A stretch of DNA of 64,000 bases from Rhizobium brockwellii (lineage in GTDB: Bacteria > Pseudomonadota > Alphaproteobacteria > Rhizobiales > Rhizobiaceae): contig NZ_CP053439.1 in the NCBI RefSeq assembly GCF_000769405.2, forward strand, positions 1,054,001 through 1,118,000, given 5' to 3'. A program made the position numbers and the translations under genes. The notes under the pieces are model-generated. The model searched no databases, was not told where the DNA came from, and worked only from the letters and a program-made list of their open reading frames with translations. Below are positions 38,660 through 48,170 of the stretch, piece after piece (within the stretch, counting starts at the first letter, position 1; each line of letters starts with the position of its first letter).

Positions 38660-40159
38660 CTATCTGGCCCCCGGCTGAACCCAGGCGTAGCCGAGCGCGA
38701 AATTGTCGCCCCGGCGGCCGAAATAATAAGGAAGCGACAGCGAGCCGATCTCCTGCAGCGCGATATCAGCCGTCGTCAGCGCCGAGGAAAACCGCTCCGG
38801 CATGACCGCATCGGCAGCCGTCGCCGTCCTCTTGCCGCGCCAGACGATCAGCACCGGCCCCTTGGCCTCGGCATAGGACGGAATGCCGGGTGCCGGAAAA
38901 TCCGGAATCACGACCGGCACATCGGGAAATTGCAACCGCATGTTTCCGCCGATATAGGTGTCGGAAGCGATCACCAGCGCCGGTTTCGCCTGTCGGGTCA
39001 TCTCGCGCGAAAAACCCGCCATCGGCACATTCGGCCGGCTGTAAGTGCCGATCAGCCCGGCGCCGACGACGCGAAAGCCGAGTGCGATCAGCACGCAGGC
39101 CATCAGCACCGGCAGCACCGGCCGGAAGCGGCGCAGCCCGGCGGAAAGGTCGAGCCCGGCAGCCTGCATTTTCGCCAGGAAATAGATCGGCAGCACCAGC
39201 AGGAACGGGTCGAGCCAGCGCTCGCGCACCGTGGTGGAGCCGGTGAACAGCACGATCAGAACGATGCCGGCAAGACTTGCGAGCATCATCCGCTCCATCA
39301 TCCCAGTCCAGCGGTTGCCGGCCGAAAGCGCCCGGATAAAATCCCGGCGGAAGGTGGCGGCGAAGATCGCGACCGGCAACGCCGCAAAGGCGATGATGGC
39401 GACGAGAAAGGCGAGAAGGCCTTTGCCGATCCGGCCGGCGCCGGCGGGTTCGCTGCCGGCGGCCATCTTGACCAGAGTGTCGGAGGAGGCGAATGCGAGA
39501 TTTCCCTGCAGCCAGATCGCGTGTGGCAGGACGATGACAAGCGCGACAGTGATCGCCGCCAGCATGCGCCAGTCGAGCGCCCTGCGCCGCCATTCGGCAT
39601 CGGGCAGGATGGCGATTAAGGCGACGACTGGCATCAGCGCGAAATTATATTTCGAGATCAGCCCGACGCCGGTCGCAAGCCCAAGCAGCAGGTAGCTCGC
39701 CATATCCGGCCGGTCGAGCGTGCGGAAGAAGCCGTAGAGAAACAGCGAGCTGGCAAAGAGCAGCGCCGTCGTGTGGGTCAGATCCTGCTGGGCCATGTAG
39801 GAGACCTGGGGCAGGGTGATCAGCGCCAGCATGCCGATAGCGGCAAGCGCCTCGTCCTTCAGCGCGCGCCGCCCGGCAAGGCCATAGAAGAGATAGGACA
39901 GGAAGAGCAGGATGTTCTTTGGAACGATCAGCGCGCCGATCGACATGCCCGTCACCGAAACGACGGCATATTGCATCCAGTTGTAGAAGGGCGGCTGCGG
40001 GCCGTAGCCCGCCAGCAGATATTGCGAGAAGAAGGATTGCTCGGCCTCGTCGAGTTCCAGCGAATGCGGAAGCACGATGCGCAGCACGATGTTGAGCACG
40101 AAGTAGGCTGCAAGCAGCAGGCCCGCGGTTCTGATCGTCCTCGTCGCGCGCTCCAGCAT
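38660..40159 (-). CDS. GT39 (ArnT-like) membrane glycosyltransferase, copy 2
   Basis: A 499-residue multi-pass transferase beginning [20 protein letters not shown] and carrying [20 protein letters not shown]. The C-terminal periplasmic part ends [20 protein letters not shown], a pattern shared with copies 1 and 3. It is closely similar to copy 3 along its length. It lies 12 bases downstream of the GT2 gene, so the donor synthase and the transferase are translated from one message. RgtA/B/C-type role in lipopolysaccharide galacturonosylation is inferred. Confidence 0.87.
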
Positions 40160-41325: not shown

Positions 41326-42819
41326 CTATTTGGCGCCGCCTTCCACCCAGGAGTAACCTATGGAGAAGCTGCGTTTGCCGTCACCGAAGAGATAGGGCAG
41401 CGTCAGCGTCTTCAACTCCTGCAGATGAATGCCCGATCTCACGAGGTCATTGGCGAAACCGGGGGAAATTGTCGGGTCATCTGCGGTCTCGCCGCGCCAG
41501 ATAACCAGGACCGGTCCCTTCGCGTTCGCATATTCGGGAACCCCGGCATCCGGAAAGAACGGGATCACGACGGGAATGTCGGGAAACTCCAACCGCATGT
41601 TGCCTGCCACGAACTTGGTTCCCGCCACGATGAGAACCGGCTTGCGGGTCGCGGTCAATTCAGTCACGTAGCCGGAAAAGGGTACGTTCGTTCTCGTATA
41701 AGTGCCGATGTATTGAATGCCGACGATCCGGAAAAGAAGGATCGACAAGATGACGACCATGAAGACCGGCAACACGGGCCGGAAGCGCGCAAGACCAGCG
41801 GAAAGATCAAGGTCTGCGGTTTCCAGTTTCAGTAACAGATAGATCAGCAGGACGAGCAGGCATGGGTCGAGCCAGCGCTCGTGGATATCGCTGGCGCCCG
41901 CAAAGAAGACCACGCCGACGAAGGCGAGCAGGCTGATGACCATCATCCGCTCGATCACCCGGATCATCGGGCTGGAAGAGGAGAGCGCGCGAAAGAAGTC
42001 GCGCCGGAAGGCGGCCGCGATGAGAACGATCGGCAATGCGACGAAGCCGAGGACGGCGATGATGAGAGACAGCAGTCCTTGCGTGATGCGGGGGAGGCCG
42101 GCCGGGGCCAGGTGTTCGGCGGTCATCCGCTCAAGCGTCGGCGCAGAGGCGCTGGCGAGATTGTCAGGCAGCCAGAGCGCATGCGGCAGCACGATCAAAA
42201 TGGCAATGACGGCCGCCGGCAGCAAACGCCAGTCGATGAGACGGCTGCGCCATTCCCGCTCCGGCAGCACGGCGATCAGGGCTGCAAATGGCAGGATGGC
42301 GAAATTATACTTCGAGATGAGCCCGATGCCGGTGGCGATGCCGATGAGGAGATAGCTCCCGATCGTCGGCTGGCGCAGCGTGCGGAAAAAACCGAAGAGG
42401 AAGAGCGAGGTCGCAAACAGCAGGGCAACCGTATGGGTCAGTTCGCGCTGCGCCATCAGTCCGACCTGCGGCAGGGTAATCAGGCTGAGCATGGCGACGG
42501 CTGCGAGCGAACGGCTCTTCAGCACCTCGCGGGCAGCAAGCCCGTAGAAGATATAACAGCCGAAGAGAATGATGTTCTTGGGCACCGAGAGCACCCACAT
42601 CGATATGCCGGTCACCGAAACGATGGCATATTGGATCCAGTTGTAGAAGGGCGGCTGCGGTCCATAGCCGGCAAGCAGATATTGCGAGTAGAAGGATTGC
42701 TCCGCCTCGTCGAGATCGAGCGTATGCGGCAAGGCGATGCGAAGCGCGATGTTCAGCAGGAAATAGCCTGCCAGAAAGATGCTTGCGCTAGTAATGCTTC
42801 TGGTAATCCGCTCCAACAT
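41326..42819 (-). CDS. GT39 (ArnT-like) membrane glycosyltransferase, copy 3
   Basis: A 497-residue multi-pass protein, strongly similar to copy 2 (MLERITRSI at the start, [20 protein letters not shown] in the first loop). The ATG at 42819 matches the copy-2 start and has GTGGAGATCG before it; a TTG five codons earlier is less likely. It is separated from the GT2 gene by 137 bases that duplicate the region upstream of itself, so it seems to have entered this place as an insertion or tandem duplication. Role as for the other copies, with a different acceptor position likely. Confidence 0.87.
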
Positions 42820-42908
42820 CGATCTCCACGTCAAGCCGGCAAGGCGCCATCATGTACCGGTCGGCCGCTCCGATCGTCGGCGTGGAGGCGTTTTCACCGC
42901 CATCGCCA

Positions 42909-42929: not shown

Positions 42930-43056
42930 CCTTCATTTCTCTTAAAAGGCCTGGTCTCTTAAAAGGCTTGGCGACGGGACCGGGCCCATGCCGACCCAAG
43001 CGAGGAATGCCTACTACATGAAGAGTTCGATCGTTGAAAGCCGGCAATCCTGGTTT
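42910..43056. repeat. Duplicated divergent promoter region, copy B
   Basis: Counterpart of 41170-41298. Here the right-hand gene (flippase-like) is intact and the left-hand gene (GT2) is a six-codon relic. It now provides the upstream region of GT39 copy 3 on the minus strand. It is about 20 bases longer than copy A, with an extra tandem TCTTAAAAGG-C block. Confidence 0.8.
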
Positions 43057-43980
43057 ATGCGCAATCGCATGACCGTTCTGACGGTCGTCATCGTCGCAGC
43101 CTATGGTCTCTTCATCCAATGGTTCTGGGGTTGGCCTGTTATCATCAGGCAGTGGGCCGATGTCGGCGCGGGTCCTGTCATTGGTGCGCTGGTGCTGCTG
43201 ACGAGCACCTATTTCCTGCGCACCTGGCGCATCTATGATTATTTCCCGAAGGAAACGGCTGGCCGGTTCGCGGTCCTCTTCCGCGTCACGCAGATCCACA
43301 ACCTGCTGAACATCATGCTGCCCTTCCGCACCGGCGAGACCAGCTTTCCGCTGCTGATGCGCAGCGAATTCGGCATTCCGCTGACGCGCGGAACCTCGGC
43401 GCTGTTCGTCATGCGGCTGCTTGATCTGCACGCCCTTCTGGCCGCCGCCGGCATCGGTTTTGCCGTCGCTTCAGCCGATGCGGCTGTTGCCTGGTCGCTC
43501 TGGACGGTCTTCCTGTTGCTGCCGGTCGCGGCTTTCGCCGCCCGCAAGCCGCTGCTGCGCCTGGCCGCCAGACTGCTGCCGAAAAAGGCGCAGAGATTCG
43601 TCGCCGAGATCGAAAACGGCTTGCCGCTCGATGCCATCGCCTTTGCGCGCGCCTGGGCGATGACCATCGTCAACTGGCTGGTGAAGGTGATGGTGCTGGC
43701 CTGGGCGCTCGGCCTGATGGGTGTGCTGCCGATGGCCGCAAGTTTCGGCGGCGCGCTCGGCGGCGAGCTCTCCTCCGTGCTGCCGATGCATGCGCCAGGC
43801 GGCGTCGGCACTTATCCAGCCGGCATCACCGCCGGCGCCATCGCCTTGGGCGCCTCAAGCGAGCGGCTGGCCCTGGCCGCGCTGGCGCAGGCAAGCGTCA
43901 ATGCCCACCTGCTGATCATCGTCTCGGCACTGACAGGCACGGCGATTTCACTGCCGCTCGGGCGTCGCGGCAAGCTCTGA
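43018..43980 (+). CDS. Flippase-like membrane protein (LPG-synthase TM / UPF0104 family)
   Basis: A 320-residue protein with about eight hydrophobic helices and the family patterns LLNIMLPFRTGETSFPLLM and MHAPGGVGTYPAGITAG. Relatives include membrane halves of lipid-modifying enzymes and suspected lipid-carrier flippases. The start is ATG 43018: the relic at 41260 conserves this ATG and the bases just before it, not the ATG ten codons upstream. It is divergent from the GT39/GT2 genes, so a role in moving the lipid-linked sugar across the membrane is attractive but unproven. Its end overlaps the sigma-factor gene by 33 bases. Confidence 0.85.
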   Translation: MKSSIVESRQSWFMRNRMTVLTVVIVAAYGLFIQWFWGWPVIIRQWADVGAGPVIGALVLLTSTYFLRTWRIYDYFPKETAGRFAVLFRVTQIHNLLNIMLPFRTGETSFPLLMRSEFGIPLTRGTSALFVMRLLDLHALLAAAGIGFAVASADAAVAWSLWTVFLLLPVAAFAARKPLLRLAARLLPKKAQRFVAEIENGLPLDAIAFARAWAMTIVNWLVKVMVLAWALGLMGVLPMAASFGGALGGELSSVLPMHAPGGVGTYPAGITAGAIALGASSERLALAALAQASVNAHLLIIVSALTGTAISLPLGRRGKL

Positions 43981-45198: not shown

Positions 45199-45558
45199 TC
45201 AGTCCGGCAGGCTCAGCATTCGCATGGGCCTCAGTTCGACCGCGCCGAAACGTGCCGAAGGGATCCGCCCGGCAATCTCCCTGACTTTCACCATGTCAGG
45301 CGCCTCGATGACGTAGAAGCCGGCCAGATGCTCCTTCGTCTCGACATAGGGGCCGTCGGTAGCTGACAGGCAGTTGTCTCGAACACGCAGCACGGTTGCC
45401 TTGTCGGGCATCTCAAGCGCATCGGCATGGATCATGATACCGTCGCGGCGCAGTTCCTCGTCGAAGGCGAAATGCGCTTTGATGAGTTCATCGGTCTCTT
45501 CCGATGTCAGCGTGCCGTCGGTGTCGGCGCTGTTATAAATCATGCAGATGTAGCGCAT
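45199..45558 (-). CDS. DGPF/YCII-domain protein 1
   Basis: A 119-residue ferredoxin-like-fold protein with the family core ATDGPYVETKEHLAGFYVIE. The ATG at 45558 follows GGGAAATAG and gives MRYICMIYNS; longer in-frame starts run into the preceding gene. DGPF proteins accompany ECF42 sigma factors, and their biochemical role is not known. It lies nine bases before the sigma gene. Confidence 0.88.
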   Translation of the reverse strand: MRYICMIYNSADTDGTLTSEETDELIKAHFAFDEELRRDGIMIHADALEMPDKATVLRVRDNCLSATDGPYVETKEHLAGFYVIEAPDMVKVREIAGRIPSARFGAVELRPMRMLSLPD

Positions 45559-45560
45559 GG

Positions 45561-45920
45561 CTATTTCCCATCCTGGATGGCGTAAGTCGGGCGCACTTCG
45601 ATTGAGCAATATTTGAGGATCGGAAAACTCGACACGATCGTCTTCGCCTCCTCGATATTCTCGGCTTCGATCAGCACAAAACCGCCGAGGTGCTCTTTGA
45701 TTTCGGCAAATGGGCCATCGGTCGAAAAGGCGTCGCCATTGCGCAGGTGGACCGTGATCGCCGTTGACGGTTCATGCAAGGCGAGCGCCACCAGCAGATG
45801 ACCGCTCTCGCGCCAGCGATTGTCGCTGGTGATGCACTCCTGTGTGAGCGCATCCCATTCGGTCTGAGGGACCAGCTTGCTTTTTTCCGTGTCGAACCAG
45901 ATCTGGCATAGAAATTTCAT
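45561..45920 (-). CDS. DGPF/YCII-domain protein 2
   Basis: A 119-residue paralogue with FSTDGPFAEIKEHLGGFVLI. The ATG at 45920 follows GAGGAGAGACC. It starts MKFLCQIWFD, like protein 3. The stop codon is two bases from the ATG of protein 1, consistent with coupled translation. Confidence 0.88.
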   Translation of the reverse strand: MKFLCQIWFDTEKSKLVPQTEWDALTQECITSDNRWRESGHLLVALALHEPSTAITVHLRNGDAFSTDGPFAEIKEHLGGFVLIEAENIEEAKTIVSSFPILKYCSIEVRPTYAIQDGK

Positions 45921-45930
45921 TGGTCTCTCC

Positions 45931-46287
45931 TCATTTAGCTCCGAATTCGTGGATTGGCCGCACTTCGATCGCGCCGAGTCTGGCGAGCGGGATGCCTGAC
46001 GCAATGCGGATCGCTTCGTTGAGATCCTTTGCCTCGATCAGGATGAAGCCCCCGAGCGCCTCCTTCGTCTCGGCGAAGGGACCGTCCGTCACCGACATCT
46101 CGCCGTTGCGCACTCGGACAGTCACCGCCGATTTCGGCGGCTGCAGTGCCTGGGCGACGATCATATGCCCGCTTTCGACGAGGTCCTTGTCATAATTCAA
46201 GGAATTGGTGTCGAGTTCGGTCTTCTCCTCTTTCGTCATGGCGTCGAGTACCCCGCCATCGAACCAGACCTGACAGAGATATTTCAT
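45931..46287 (-). CDS. DGPF/YCII-domain protein 3
   Basis: A 118-residue paralogue with SVTDGPFAETKEALGGFILI; it is first in the operon. GAGGAGG precedes the ATG at 46287. It is the closest relative of protein 2 (MKYLCQVWFD versus MKFLCQIWFD), suggesting local duplication. The sigma-type promoter is about 37 bases upstream. Confidence 0.9.
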   Translation of the reverse strand: MKYLCQVWFDGGVLDAMTKEEKTELDTNSLNYDKDLVESGHMIVAQALQPPKSAVTVRVRNGEMSVTDGPFAETKEALGGFILIEAKDLNEAIRIASGIPLARLGAIEVRPIHEFGAK

Positions 46288-46323
46288 CGCGGCAGCCTCC
46301 TCGTGAGCATTTCAATAACCCTG

Positions 46324-46350
46324 GACGACCGAACTCCACGCATTTCGACA
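46324..46350 (-). promoter_or_regulatory. Candidate ECF42 promoter of the DGPF-sigma operon
   Basis: On the minus strand: TGTCGA (46350-46345), a 17-base spacer, then CGTC (46327-46324), leaving a leader of about 30 bases before the DGPF3 start. This fits the TGTCGA/CGWC pattern I recall for ECF42 promoters and implies autoregulation. Confidence 0.65.
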
Positions 46351-46381
46351 CCGGTGGAAAAAAATCTTTGTGCCGGCCGGC

Positions 46382-46408
46382 TGTCGAAATCGCAAGGCAG
46401 CACTCGAC
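46382..46408 (+). promoter_or_regulatory. Candidate ECF42 promoter of the divergent small gene
   Basis: TGTCGA (46382-46387), a 17-base spacer, then CGAC (46405-46408), about 35 bases before the ATG at 46443. The spacing is identical to the minus-strand promoter, and the two -35 boxes lie 31 bases apart, back to back. Confidence 0.62.
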
Positions 46409-46442
46409 AAGGCTTCATCGAAACCTGTCGAGGAGAACGGAA

Positions 46443-46658
46443 ATGAGCATTCTTGAAATCGCCCTGGCAAGCCATATCTGGGCACGCCGTCGTGAAAAGC
46501 GTCAGCTGGTACCCGACGATACCGATGCGCTGAGGGTTCTTCTGCGCATCGTTTTCGTCGTCGTCGCCTTCACCCTGCTGATATCAGGGCTGAACCTTGC
46601 CGCCGGCAGGCCGCAGATGCTGGCCGAGGGGTCGGCGCCCGTCGTGACGGGCAGATGA
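46443..46658 (+). CDS. Small single-pass membrane protein (71 aa), putative ECF42 regulon member
   Basis: ATG 46443 is preceded by CGAGGAGAACGG. The product starts MSILEIALASHIWARRREKR and has one strong membrane helix (about residues 33-52, LRIVFVVVAFTLLISGLNLA) with a short polar tail. The basic residues before the helix suggest the N-terminus is cytoplasmic. I know no family. Its promoter matches that of the divergent DGPF-sigma operon. A hairpin follows the stop. Confidence 0.68.
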   Translation: MSILEIALASHIWARRREKRQLVPDDTDALRVLLRIVFVVVAFTLLISGLNLAAGRPQMLAEGSAPVVTGR

Positions 46659-46660
46659 TA

Positions 46661-46684
46661 AAACGGCCTATTGGAAGGCCGTTT
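46661..46684. terminator. Terminator hairpin between small gene and amn
   Basis: AAACGGCC and GGCCGTTT form a perfect 8-base stem around TATTGGAA. On the minus strand it overlaps the amn stop codon and is followed by TTTTATC, so it best serves amn; it can also stop the 71-residue gene. Confidence 0.7.
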
Positions 46685-48170
46685 CGAAGAAGCTGCGCAG
46701 CTTGCGTGAATGCAGCGCTTCCTTCGGCATGGCGGCCAGCTTCTGGACGGCGCGAATGCCGATCTGCAGATGCTGGTTGACCTGCGTGCGGTAGAAGGCC
46801 GTCGCCATGCCCGGCAGTTTCAATTCGCCGTGCAATGGTTTGTCGGAGACGCAGAGCAGCGTGCCGTAGGGCACGCGGAAGCGGAAGCCGTTGGCGGCGA
46901 TCGTTGCCGATTCCATGTCGAGCGCGATCGCGCGCGCCTGGGAGAGCCGCTTCACCGGCCCGCGCTGGTCGCGCAGTTCCCAGTTGCGGTTGTCGATCGT
47001 GCCGACGGTGCCGGTGCGCATGATGCGCTTCAGCTCGAAACCCTCATAACCGGTGATTTCGGCAACGGCAGCTTCCAGCGCCACCTGCACTTCGGCCAGC
47101 GCCGGGATCGGCACCCAGACCGGCAGGTCGTCGTCGAGGACATGGTCCTCGCGCATATAGGCATGGGCGAGTACATAGTCGCCGAGCCGCTGGCTGTTGC
47201 GAAGACCGGCGCAATGGCCGAGCATCAGCCAGGCATGCGGGCGCAGCACGGCAACATGGTCGGTAATCGTCTTGGCGTTGGAGGGGCCGACGCCGATATT
47301 GATCATGGTGATCCCGGCATGGCCCTTCTTCTTCAGATGGTAGGCTGGCATCTGTGGCAGGCGGGTAAGGGCGGAATCCGTTTCCGGTGCGTTCGAGCCG
47401 GGCAGGGTGACGACATTGCCGGGCTCGACGAAGGCAGTATAGCCGTCGCCGTCCTCCGCCATCAGCTTGCGCGCCCAGCTGCAGAATTCGTCGATATAGA
47501 ACTGGTAATTCGTAAACAGCACGAAATTCTGGAAATGCTCGGCATGCGTCGCCGTATAATGCGACAGTCGGGCGAGCGAGTAGTCGATGCGTTGCGCGGT
47601 AAATGGCGCAAGCGGCGAGGGCTCTCCCGGCGGCGGGATATATTCGCCGTTGGCAATCTCGTCGTCGGTGGTGTTGAGATCTGGTGTGTCGAAGATATCG
47701 CGCATCGGAACGTCGATGAAGGCGTTGGTCGATGCTTCCACATGCGCACCCTCGCCGAAGGCGAAGTGCAAGGGGATCGGCGTCGTCGATTCCGAGACGA
47801 TGACAGGCACATTGTGGCTCTTCATCAAGAGCGCCAGCTGCTCTTTCAGGTAATGCTTGAAGAGCTTCGGCCGGGTGACGGTCGTCGTATAGATGCCGGG
47901 TGCCGTGACATGACCATAGGAAAGCCGCGAATCGACATGGCCGAAGCTTGTCGTCTCGATGCTGACCTGCGGATAAAAAGCGCGGTAGCGCGAGGAGATC
48001 GGCGCGCCCTGTGCGAGTTCGGCGAAGCTCTGGATGAGAAACGCCGTATTGCGCTCGTAAAGCGCCGTCAGCGCCTCGACCGCCTTGGCGGGATCATCGA
48101 AACTCTCAGGCTGGAAAGGCGGTGGAGAGGAAATGTCGAGGGGCAACAAAGGGGGGATTCGTTTGTTCAT
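46668..48170 (-). CDS. amn: AMP nucleosidase
   Basis: A 500-residue enzyme that splits AMP to adenine and ribose-5-phosphate, adjusting the adenylate pool. It has the AMP-nucleosidase N-terminal domain (for example SRLSYGHVTAPGIYTTTVTR) and a C-terminal nucleoside-phosphorylase fold with INIGVGPSNAKTITDHVAVL and a late ALDMESATIAANGFRFRVPY. Length fits the family. It is transcribed alone; upstream lies a family-A repeat. Confidence 0.95.
   Translation of the reverse strand: MNKRIPPLLPLDISSPPPFQPESFDDPAKAVEALTALYERNTAFLIQSFAELAQGAPISSRYRAFYPQVSIETTSFGHVDSRLSYGHVTAPGIYTTTVTRPKLFKHYLKEQLALLMKSHNVPVIVSESTTPIPLHFAFGEGAHVEASTNAFIDVPMRDIFDTPDLNTTDDEIANGEYIPPPGEPSPLAPFTAQRIDYSLARLSHYTATHAEHFQNFVLFTNYQFYIDEFCSWARKLMAEDGDGYTAFVEPGNVVTLPGSNAPETDSALTRLPQMPAYHLKKKGHAGITMINIGVGPSNAKTITDHVAVLRPHAWLMLGHCAGLRNSQRLGDYVLAHAYMREDHVLDDDLPVWVPIPALAEVQVALEAAVAEITGYEGFELKRIMRTGTVGTIDNRNWELRDQRGPVKRLSQARAIALDMESATIAANGFRFRVPYGTLLCVSDKPLHGELKLPGMATAFYRTQVNQHLQIGIRAVQKLAAMPKEALHSRKLRSFFETAFQ

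Follow-up and report, generated by a model that had tools for sequence, protein, structure and literature searches.

The gap between a DGPF-sigma operon and a small membrane gene in Rhizobium brockwellii is very probably the control region of an ECF42-type divergon

A gap of 155 bases in a 64,000-nucleotide stretch of Rhizobium brockwellii DNA (hereafter the window) separates a minus-strand operon of YCII/DGPF and sigma factor genes from a plus-strand ORF of 71 residues. We conclude that this gap is very probably the control region of an autoregulated ECF42-type divergon that includes a small bitopic membrane protein. The features of the locus are collected in Table 1. The small ORF stops 9 bases short of the end of the convergent amn gene, and the LPG_synthase_TM-family gene lies on the far side of the sigma gene in 131 of 133 orthologous loci. 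Farther out in the window, a tandem pair of similar, large membrane-type proteins, each about 500 residues long, is encoded around a glycosyltransferase-like gene (38660-40159 and 41326-42834); judged by eye, the pair looks like a duplication.

Table 1. Features of the divergent locus, in window coordinates
Feature	Position	Strand	Details
LPG_synthase_TM-family gene, other module boundary	42988..43980	+	PF03706
ECF42-type sigma factor (assigned from sequence), 413 aa	43948..45189	-	Sigma70_r2, Sigma70_r4_2, DUF6596, TPR
YCII/DGPF protein 3	45199..45561	-	PF03795, E 2.5e-18
YCII/DGPF protein 2	45561..45920	-	PF03795, E 1.2e-12
YCII/DGPF protein 1, first gene of operon	45931..46287	-	PF03795, E 5.8e-23
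Predicted ECF42-type promoter of DGPF-sigma operon	46324..46350	-	-35 TGTCGA 46350-46345, N17, -10 CGTC 46327-46324
A/T tract between the two -35 elements (AAAAAAATCTTT)	46358..46369	.	Possible shared UP element
Predicted ECF42-type promoter of small gene	46382..46408	+	-35 TGTCGA 46382-46387, N17, -10 CGAC 46405-46408
Inverted repeat CTCGACA...TGTCGAG	46403..46432	+	From plus -10 to Shine-Dalgarno; leguminosarum/etli clade
Shine-Dalgarno GAGGAG of small gene	46430..46435	+	Sequence
Predicted 71-residue bitopic membrane protein	46443..46658	+	dN/dS, hydropathy, AlphaFold2
amn (AMP nucleosidase), outer module boundary	46668..48170	-	PF10423

The initial annotation had placed back-to-back, identical ECF-type promoters in the gap, each about 35 bases from a start codon. 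Both motifs are found on the strands and at the positions claimed, with a 17-nt spacer each, and the distances agree as well: 36 nt from the minus -10 element to the ATG at 46287 and 34 nt from the plus -10 element to the ATG at 46443. The word identical applies to the -35 elements only, since the -10 elements differ, and this difference is nearly fixed in the genus (CGTC on the minus side and CGAC on the plus side, each in 132/133 loci). Between the two -35 elements there is an A/T run of at least 5 in 128 of the 130 loci measured, and the tract in the window is possibly a UP element shared by both promoters.

To judge the rarity of these elements, the whole 7.1-Mb genome was searched. The loose motif, with a spacer of 16-18, gave 498 matches, compared to 75 for a backwards control, so its mere presence in the gap says little. 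The extended motif TGTCGA-N16-TCGWC-N-A gave four matches (control, one), and two of the four are those in the gap. From four matches in 7.1 Mb, about 0.0001 would be expected by chance per 155 bases, a figure that is not fully independent because the alignment of relatives with this locus supplied the extension; conservation carries more weight. Neither a sigma70-type promoter (consensus scan) nor a terminator-like site was found in 46250-46750.

The third extended-motif match (G000:C1:820605-820633) has its -35 element starting 57 nt before a GFA-family gene (PF04828). Counting its own locus, the motif is exact in 7 of 25 homologue loci (23 of the 25 were readable); in the others it is partly altered or lacking. 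In another family, a GFA gene likewise stands opposite a DGPF/sigma operon as its divergent partner. A look just downstream of the fourth match (G000:C3:445202-445230) revealed no ORF with a ribosome site.

Conservation was measured within a genus sample of 148 genomes, from which 132 other loci were fetched, giving 133 orthologous loci together with that of the window. The minus promoter reads exactly TGTCGA-N17-CGTC in 132 of them and ends in CGAC in the remaining one, with a spacing of 17 in all 133. A lack of conservation of the plus motif in relatives had been set beforehand as the refuting condition, and the motif held: TGTCGA-N17-CGAC is exact in 114/133 loci, carries one mismatch in 17 and has a 16-nt spacer in 2. 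Two of the one-mismatch matches (L111 and L146) were first scored elsewhere in the gap; a recount restricted to the homologous position, 25-60 nt ahead of the small gene, gave the same outcome (of 131, 113 exact, 16 with a single mismatch and 2 with a different spacer). The plus -10 element lies 30-35 nt from the small-gene start in 128/131 loci. On the minus side, this distance is 136 nt in five loci and 82 nt in one, where the start of the first gene is probably misassigned; the motif counts are unaffected. Among the 86 plus promoters (83 distinct) outside the leguminosarum/etli clade, the -35 and -10 elements have mean pairwise identities of 0.95 and 0.99, and the spacer and flanks only 0.48 and 0.36-0.44. 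Two further conserved positions, a T before the -10 element and an A two bases after it, are common to both strands. Because it is conserved across orthologous loci, the promoter pair is beyond chance.

The sigma factor appears to be of the ECF42 type, an assignment made from its domains, its DGPF neighbours and its promoter type. It has sigma regions 2 and 4 (PF04542, E 2.7e-07; PF08281, E 1.2e-07). A C-terminal extension of about 200 residues is a criterion of ECF42, and here the extension carries DUF6596 at 178-278 and a TPR at 361-396 of the 413 residues. YCII/DGPF neighbours, another criterion, are represented by the three PF03795 genes of the operon, and the operon's own promoter is of the TGTCG-N17-CGWC type, exact in 132/133 loci. 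The ECF42 factors of Streptomyces venezuelae, in the work of Liu and colleagues from 2018, reportedly have DGPF neighbours and TGTCGA/CGWC promoters. We know of no small membrane protein in that system.

No such protein is mentioned in the portions of the S. venezuelae literature covered here either (PMC8999054); what these portions do describe for Sven_0747 and others is a TPR extension, as here, which is needed for activity (PMC8999054). The agreement with the ECF42 promoter, which the initial annotation had put forward, is borne out by the motif of RpoE10 from Sinorhizobium meliloti, TGTCGG-N17-CGTC, as given in the covered part of its description (PMC6180224). According to the same part, overexpression of RpoE10 (SMc01150) raises two operons behind this motif, SMc01149-48 and SMb20475-74, which include glyoxylase-like proteins (PMC6180224). 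A sigma factor that activates its own operon and the small gene would fit this result. As also described there, the gene beside rpoE10 did not respond to overexpression, although a motif overlaps its mapped start (PMC6180224), and positive autoregulation thus cannot be assumed here. RpoE10 resembles the present sigma factor in its long C-terminal TPR extension and in the YCII gene beside it; unlike here, no divergent small membrane gene is mentioned for its locus in the sections covered (PMC6180224). In the parts of the ECF42, YCII/DGPF and rhizobial ECF literature searched (including PMC6180224, PMC8999054, PMC8103513, PMC10880074, PMC3616915, PMC3188799, PMC9023288 and PMC6085468), no ECF42 locus with a divergent small membrane gene came up, and the covered ECF42 literature names no signal for this group.

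The initial annotation had also predicted that the 71-residue ORF encodes a membrane protein, and this part is supported. Purifying selection marks the small gene as genuinely coding: the median dN/dS is 0.32 in frame (697 pairs from 38 equal-length sequences), compared to 1.01, 1.32 and 1.06 for three alternative frames. Its product measures 52-77 residues in 131 loci, and 130 of the 131 homologues have a single strongly hydrophobic stretch (hydropathy of at least 1.6). Basic residues are more numerous before this stretch than after it in 120/131 homologues and equal in 10. The AlphaFold2 model of the 71-residue protein (mean pLDDT 78.2) has helices at 3-21 and 26-53, the latter putatively transmembrane, and we predict a bitopic protein with the N-terminus inside and the C-terminus outside. 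The protein itself has no Pfam or NCBIfam match, and 13 divergent homologues have no weak Pfam match in common; each of their 8 weak matches occurs in one homologue, and no recognised anti-sigma domain is among them or in the small protein. Its nearest named relatives are in genomes of the R. leguminosarum group, and it evolves much faster than the sigma factor. At the RNA level, the leader gave no hairpin signal (z -0.88 from the -10 element on, +1.10 from the predicted start on), and 45900-46800 has no Rfam match.

A single-sequence search with the 71-residue protein found it in 60/148 genus genomes and 2/151 family genomes. The view that the gene is confined to one clade was rejected, as the intergenic gaps and a profile search revealed the low sensitivity of this search. 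An iterated profile contains its own matches, so its E-values are not independent; a separate profile gave an independent count, with the small gene in 132/148 genus genomes. Four second matches in the genus (E 0.003-0.009) were treated as noise.

The sigma orthologue is present in 133/148 genus genomes (E at most 4.8e-177), the next matches being at about 1e-106 or weaker. Of the remaining 15 genomes, 12 have a distant sigma match only and 3 have none at E <= 1e-60. The 16 genomes without the small gene are these 15 and one more (G258), in which a contig ends inside the gap, 163 bases after the first DGPF start; in another genome (G266), the small-gene match has in-frame stops. In all 15 sigma-less genomes, amn stands 19-75 bp from the LPG_synthase_TM-family gene, and no loose-form motif occurs in the 900 bases behind amn. 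What these genomes lack is thus a single block of small gene, DGPF genes and sigma gene. Along an amn tree of 139 rows built with FastTree, the presence/absence state changes at least 3 times, as gain or loss. As the whole block is absent, this identifies the unit of gain and loss and does not by itself demonstrate regulation.

Outside the genus, a sigma search in a family sample (E at most 1e-130) found matches in 22/294 genomes, 17 of them from other genera. In one of these 17 loci (L232), no DGPF gene lay within reach, and the other 16 were readable. A divergent one-helix ORF is present in six of the 16; the plus motif before it is exact in L227, L229, L230 and L231 and has one base changed in the -10 or -35 element in L228 and L234. 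Two more (L233 and L235) combine the motif with an ORF that resembles the small protein at its start and has no clear helix, and seven (L236-L242) lack both the plus motif and a one-helix ORF. In L243, the divergent motif of the sigma/DGPF locus faces a glyoxalase-family gene (PF00903) rather than a small protein. The distance from the -10 element to the start varies from 29 to 73 nt outside the genus. Twelve of the 16 readable loci have CGAC as the last bases of the sigma operon's own promoter, and this sigma group thus seems to tolerate CGAC.

Homology of the small protein outside the genus is weak (E 1.5e-4 to 0.009 with a profile from the genus only). A family-wide profile search matched 15/297 genomes, 5 of them of the genus. 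Six of the ten non-genus matches were examined (L200, L203, L204 and L206 fell outside this set); the layout is present in L197, L198 and L205, and both a sigma/DGPF locus and the divergent layout are absent at L199 and L202. In the sixth (L201, G358:C1, near 3058925), a weak small-protein match lies between the sigma and DGPF genes of a second sigma/DGPF locus and is not divergent.

Order-wide, the DNA pattern of the divergent pair matched in 90/397 genomes, from which seven loci (L278-L284) were chosen by eye as intergenic-looking. Five of the seven, from two other families, are at DGPF genes, and four of these five (not L279) have a sigma match; L281 and L284 have neither a DGPF gene nor a sigma match. 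One of the five (L282, family f6) has the same layout with a divergent 70-residue one-helix protein, 36 nt behind the motif. The others have an ORF without a helix (L278), a short ORF before a larger gene (L279), a motif directed at the DGPF gene itself (L280) and a GFA-family enzyme gene as the divergent partner of the DGPF/sigma operon (L283). In total, five further genera of the family (g45, g62, g64, g86 and g84) and one genus of another family (g193, family f6) share the layout with a one-helix protein; in g86, the plus motif is exact in one genome and has one -10 base changed in the other, and in g84 one -35 base is changed.

An order-wide profile search for the small protein matched 35/249 genomes, including three of the genus and one (G563) whose sequence is in the profile. 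Among the 26 loci examined (L317-L342; five matches fell outside them), only two adjoin a DGPF gene, both from genus g73. In the two genomes of this genus (L343 and L344), an ORF like the small gene precedes a DGPF gene behind TGTCGG-N17-CGTC, and no sigma match occurs within the 8.5 kb fetched. The link to the small gene rests mainly on position because the profile scores are weak (E 0.0017 and 0.003), and the unit is possibly a detached target cassette.

The inverted repeat that runs from the plus -10 element to the Shine-Dalgarno sequence is specific to one clade. CTCGAC-N14-20-GTCGAG is kept in 44/47 leguminosarum/etli loci and, even as a looser pattern, in 0/84 loci in the rest of the genus. 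In this clade (45 loci), identity is 0.88 in the plus spacer and 0.92 in the 22 bases after the -10 element, compared to 0.71-0.74 at the neighbours' third codon positions and 0.73 in the minus spacer. As the left arm of the repeat lies within the -10 element, a transcript from the plus promoter would not contain it, and a putative DNA-binding site is the likelier reading.

These clade-specific features bear on whether the plus element is a sigma promoter at all. It might instead be an operator, the palindrome TGTCGA-N16-TCGACA being bound by a dimeric repressor or activator while the small gene uses another promoter. A third copy, TGTCGAG at 46426-46432, could join such a palindrome, the plus element also reads as a minus-strand promoter in many leguminosarum/etli loci, and the extra repeat and the unusual conservation of spacer and leader in that clade would suit it. 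We nevertheless consider an operator very unlikely: elsewhere in the genus, only 43/86 loci retain the A needed to complete the palindrome, whereas 84/86 retain the A two bases after the plus -10 element, as on the minus side (126/132), the extra repeat is absent there, and the consensus scan of 46250-46750 found no sigma70-type promoter for the small gene to use. Even further from credible, to the point of being negligible, is a chance match in GC-rich DNA before a spurious ORF. The frequency of the loose motif in the genome would allow it, but conservation, dN/dS and the four genomic occurrences of the extended motif already refute it. A genuine ECF-type promoter driven by another ECF42-like sigma factor of the same genome is a little less remote than an operator and still improbable. 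The genome has two further sigma matches at E <= 1e-60 (three in all), which might read the same motif, and the plus -10 element, CGAC, differs from the operon's own CGTC; against this, the small gene and the local sigma gene come and go together, 12 of the 15 genomes without both still keep a more distant sigma match, and CGAC is common in the own promoters of sigma operons elsewhere.

The function of the small protein is a separate matter. The locus resembles a classical ECF sigma factor with its membrane anti-sigma factor in that a membrane protein is encoded beside an autoregulated sigma gene under the same promoter type. It differs in that a separate, divergent promoter serves the membrane gene, its product shows no recognised anti-sigma domain, and only about 25-35 residues lie on the predicted cytoplasmic side. 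The protein might still act as the missing ECF42 regulator, keeping the sigma factor at the membrane by way of its own cytoplasmic helix and the sigma factor's TPR extension and so providing feedback control. The tight linkage and the common promoter type are in keeping with this, and the build of the protein, small and bitopic with a cytoplasmic helix, would suit a membrane regulator. In the sources covered in part, ECF42 is described as having no known anti-sigma factor (PMC6180224; PMC8999054 is cited for this as well), and a ligand of the TPR domain, possibly another protein, is proposed to control it (PMC9023288; PMC8999054), which makes the idea attractive. However, no sigma match lies in the 8.5 kb fetched around the g73 cassettes, which pair a similar ORF with a DGPF gene, the small protein is missing from 7/16 readable sigma loci in other genera, and it changes much faster than the sigma factor; a regulator is therefore an unlikely reading. 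The g73 cassettes and the several ECF42 loci without a small protein lead us to prefer a role in the DGPF response, as a membrane effector or accessory.

For the autoregulated divergon, we propose the following course. RNA polymerase with the local ECF42 sigma factor would read TGTCGAA-N15-TCG(T/A)C-N-A on both strands, and the A/T tract between the -35 elements may serve both sides. The leftward transcript would yield the three YCII/DGPF proteins and the sigma factor itself, which would amount to positive feedback; the rightward one would yield the small membrane protein, which is predicted to have one helix in the cytoplasm, one across the membrane and a short tail in the periplasm. The dependence of both promoters on this sigma factor, the start sites, the topology and the function at the membrane are inferred. 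Most likely, the small protein and the DGPF proteins belong to one response, in which the former acts at the membrane.

The small protein is tied to ECF42 by promoter, position and joint presence and absence, which makes it a candidate partner for the sigma factor. ECF42 is widespread and has no known anti-sigma factor, and the small protein offers a defined membrane component to test in these bacteria. The promoter rule from the 133 loci can be used for regulon prediction and already flags the GFA-family enzyme gene in the same genome. We would give only a low probability to the further possibility that the small protein couples ECF42 to the membrane via the TPR extension or the DGPF proteins; if this were true, the divergon would form a complete sensing loop, going beyond an effector regulon.
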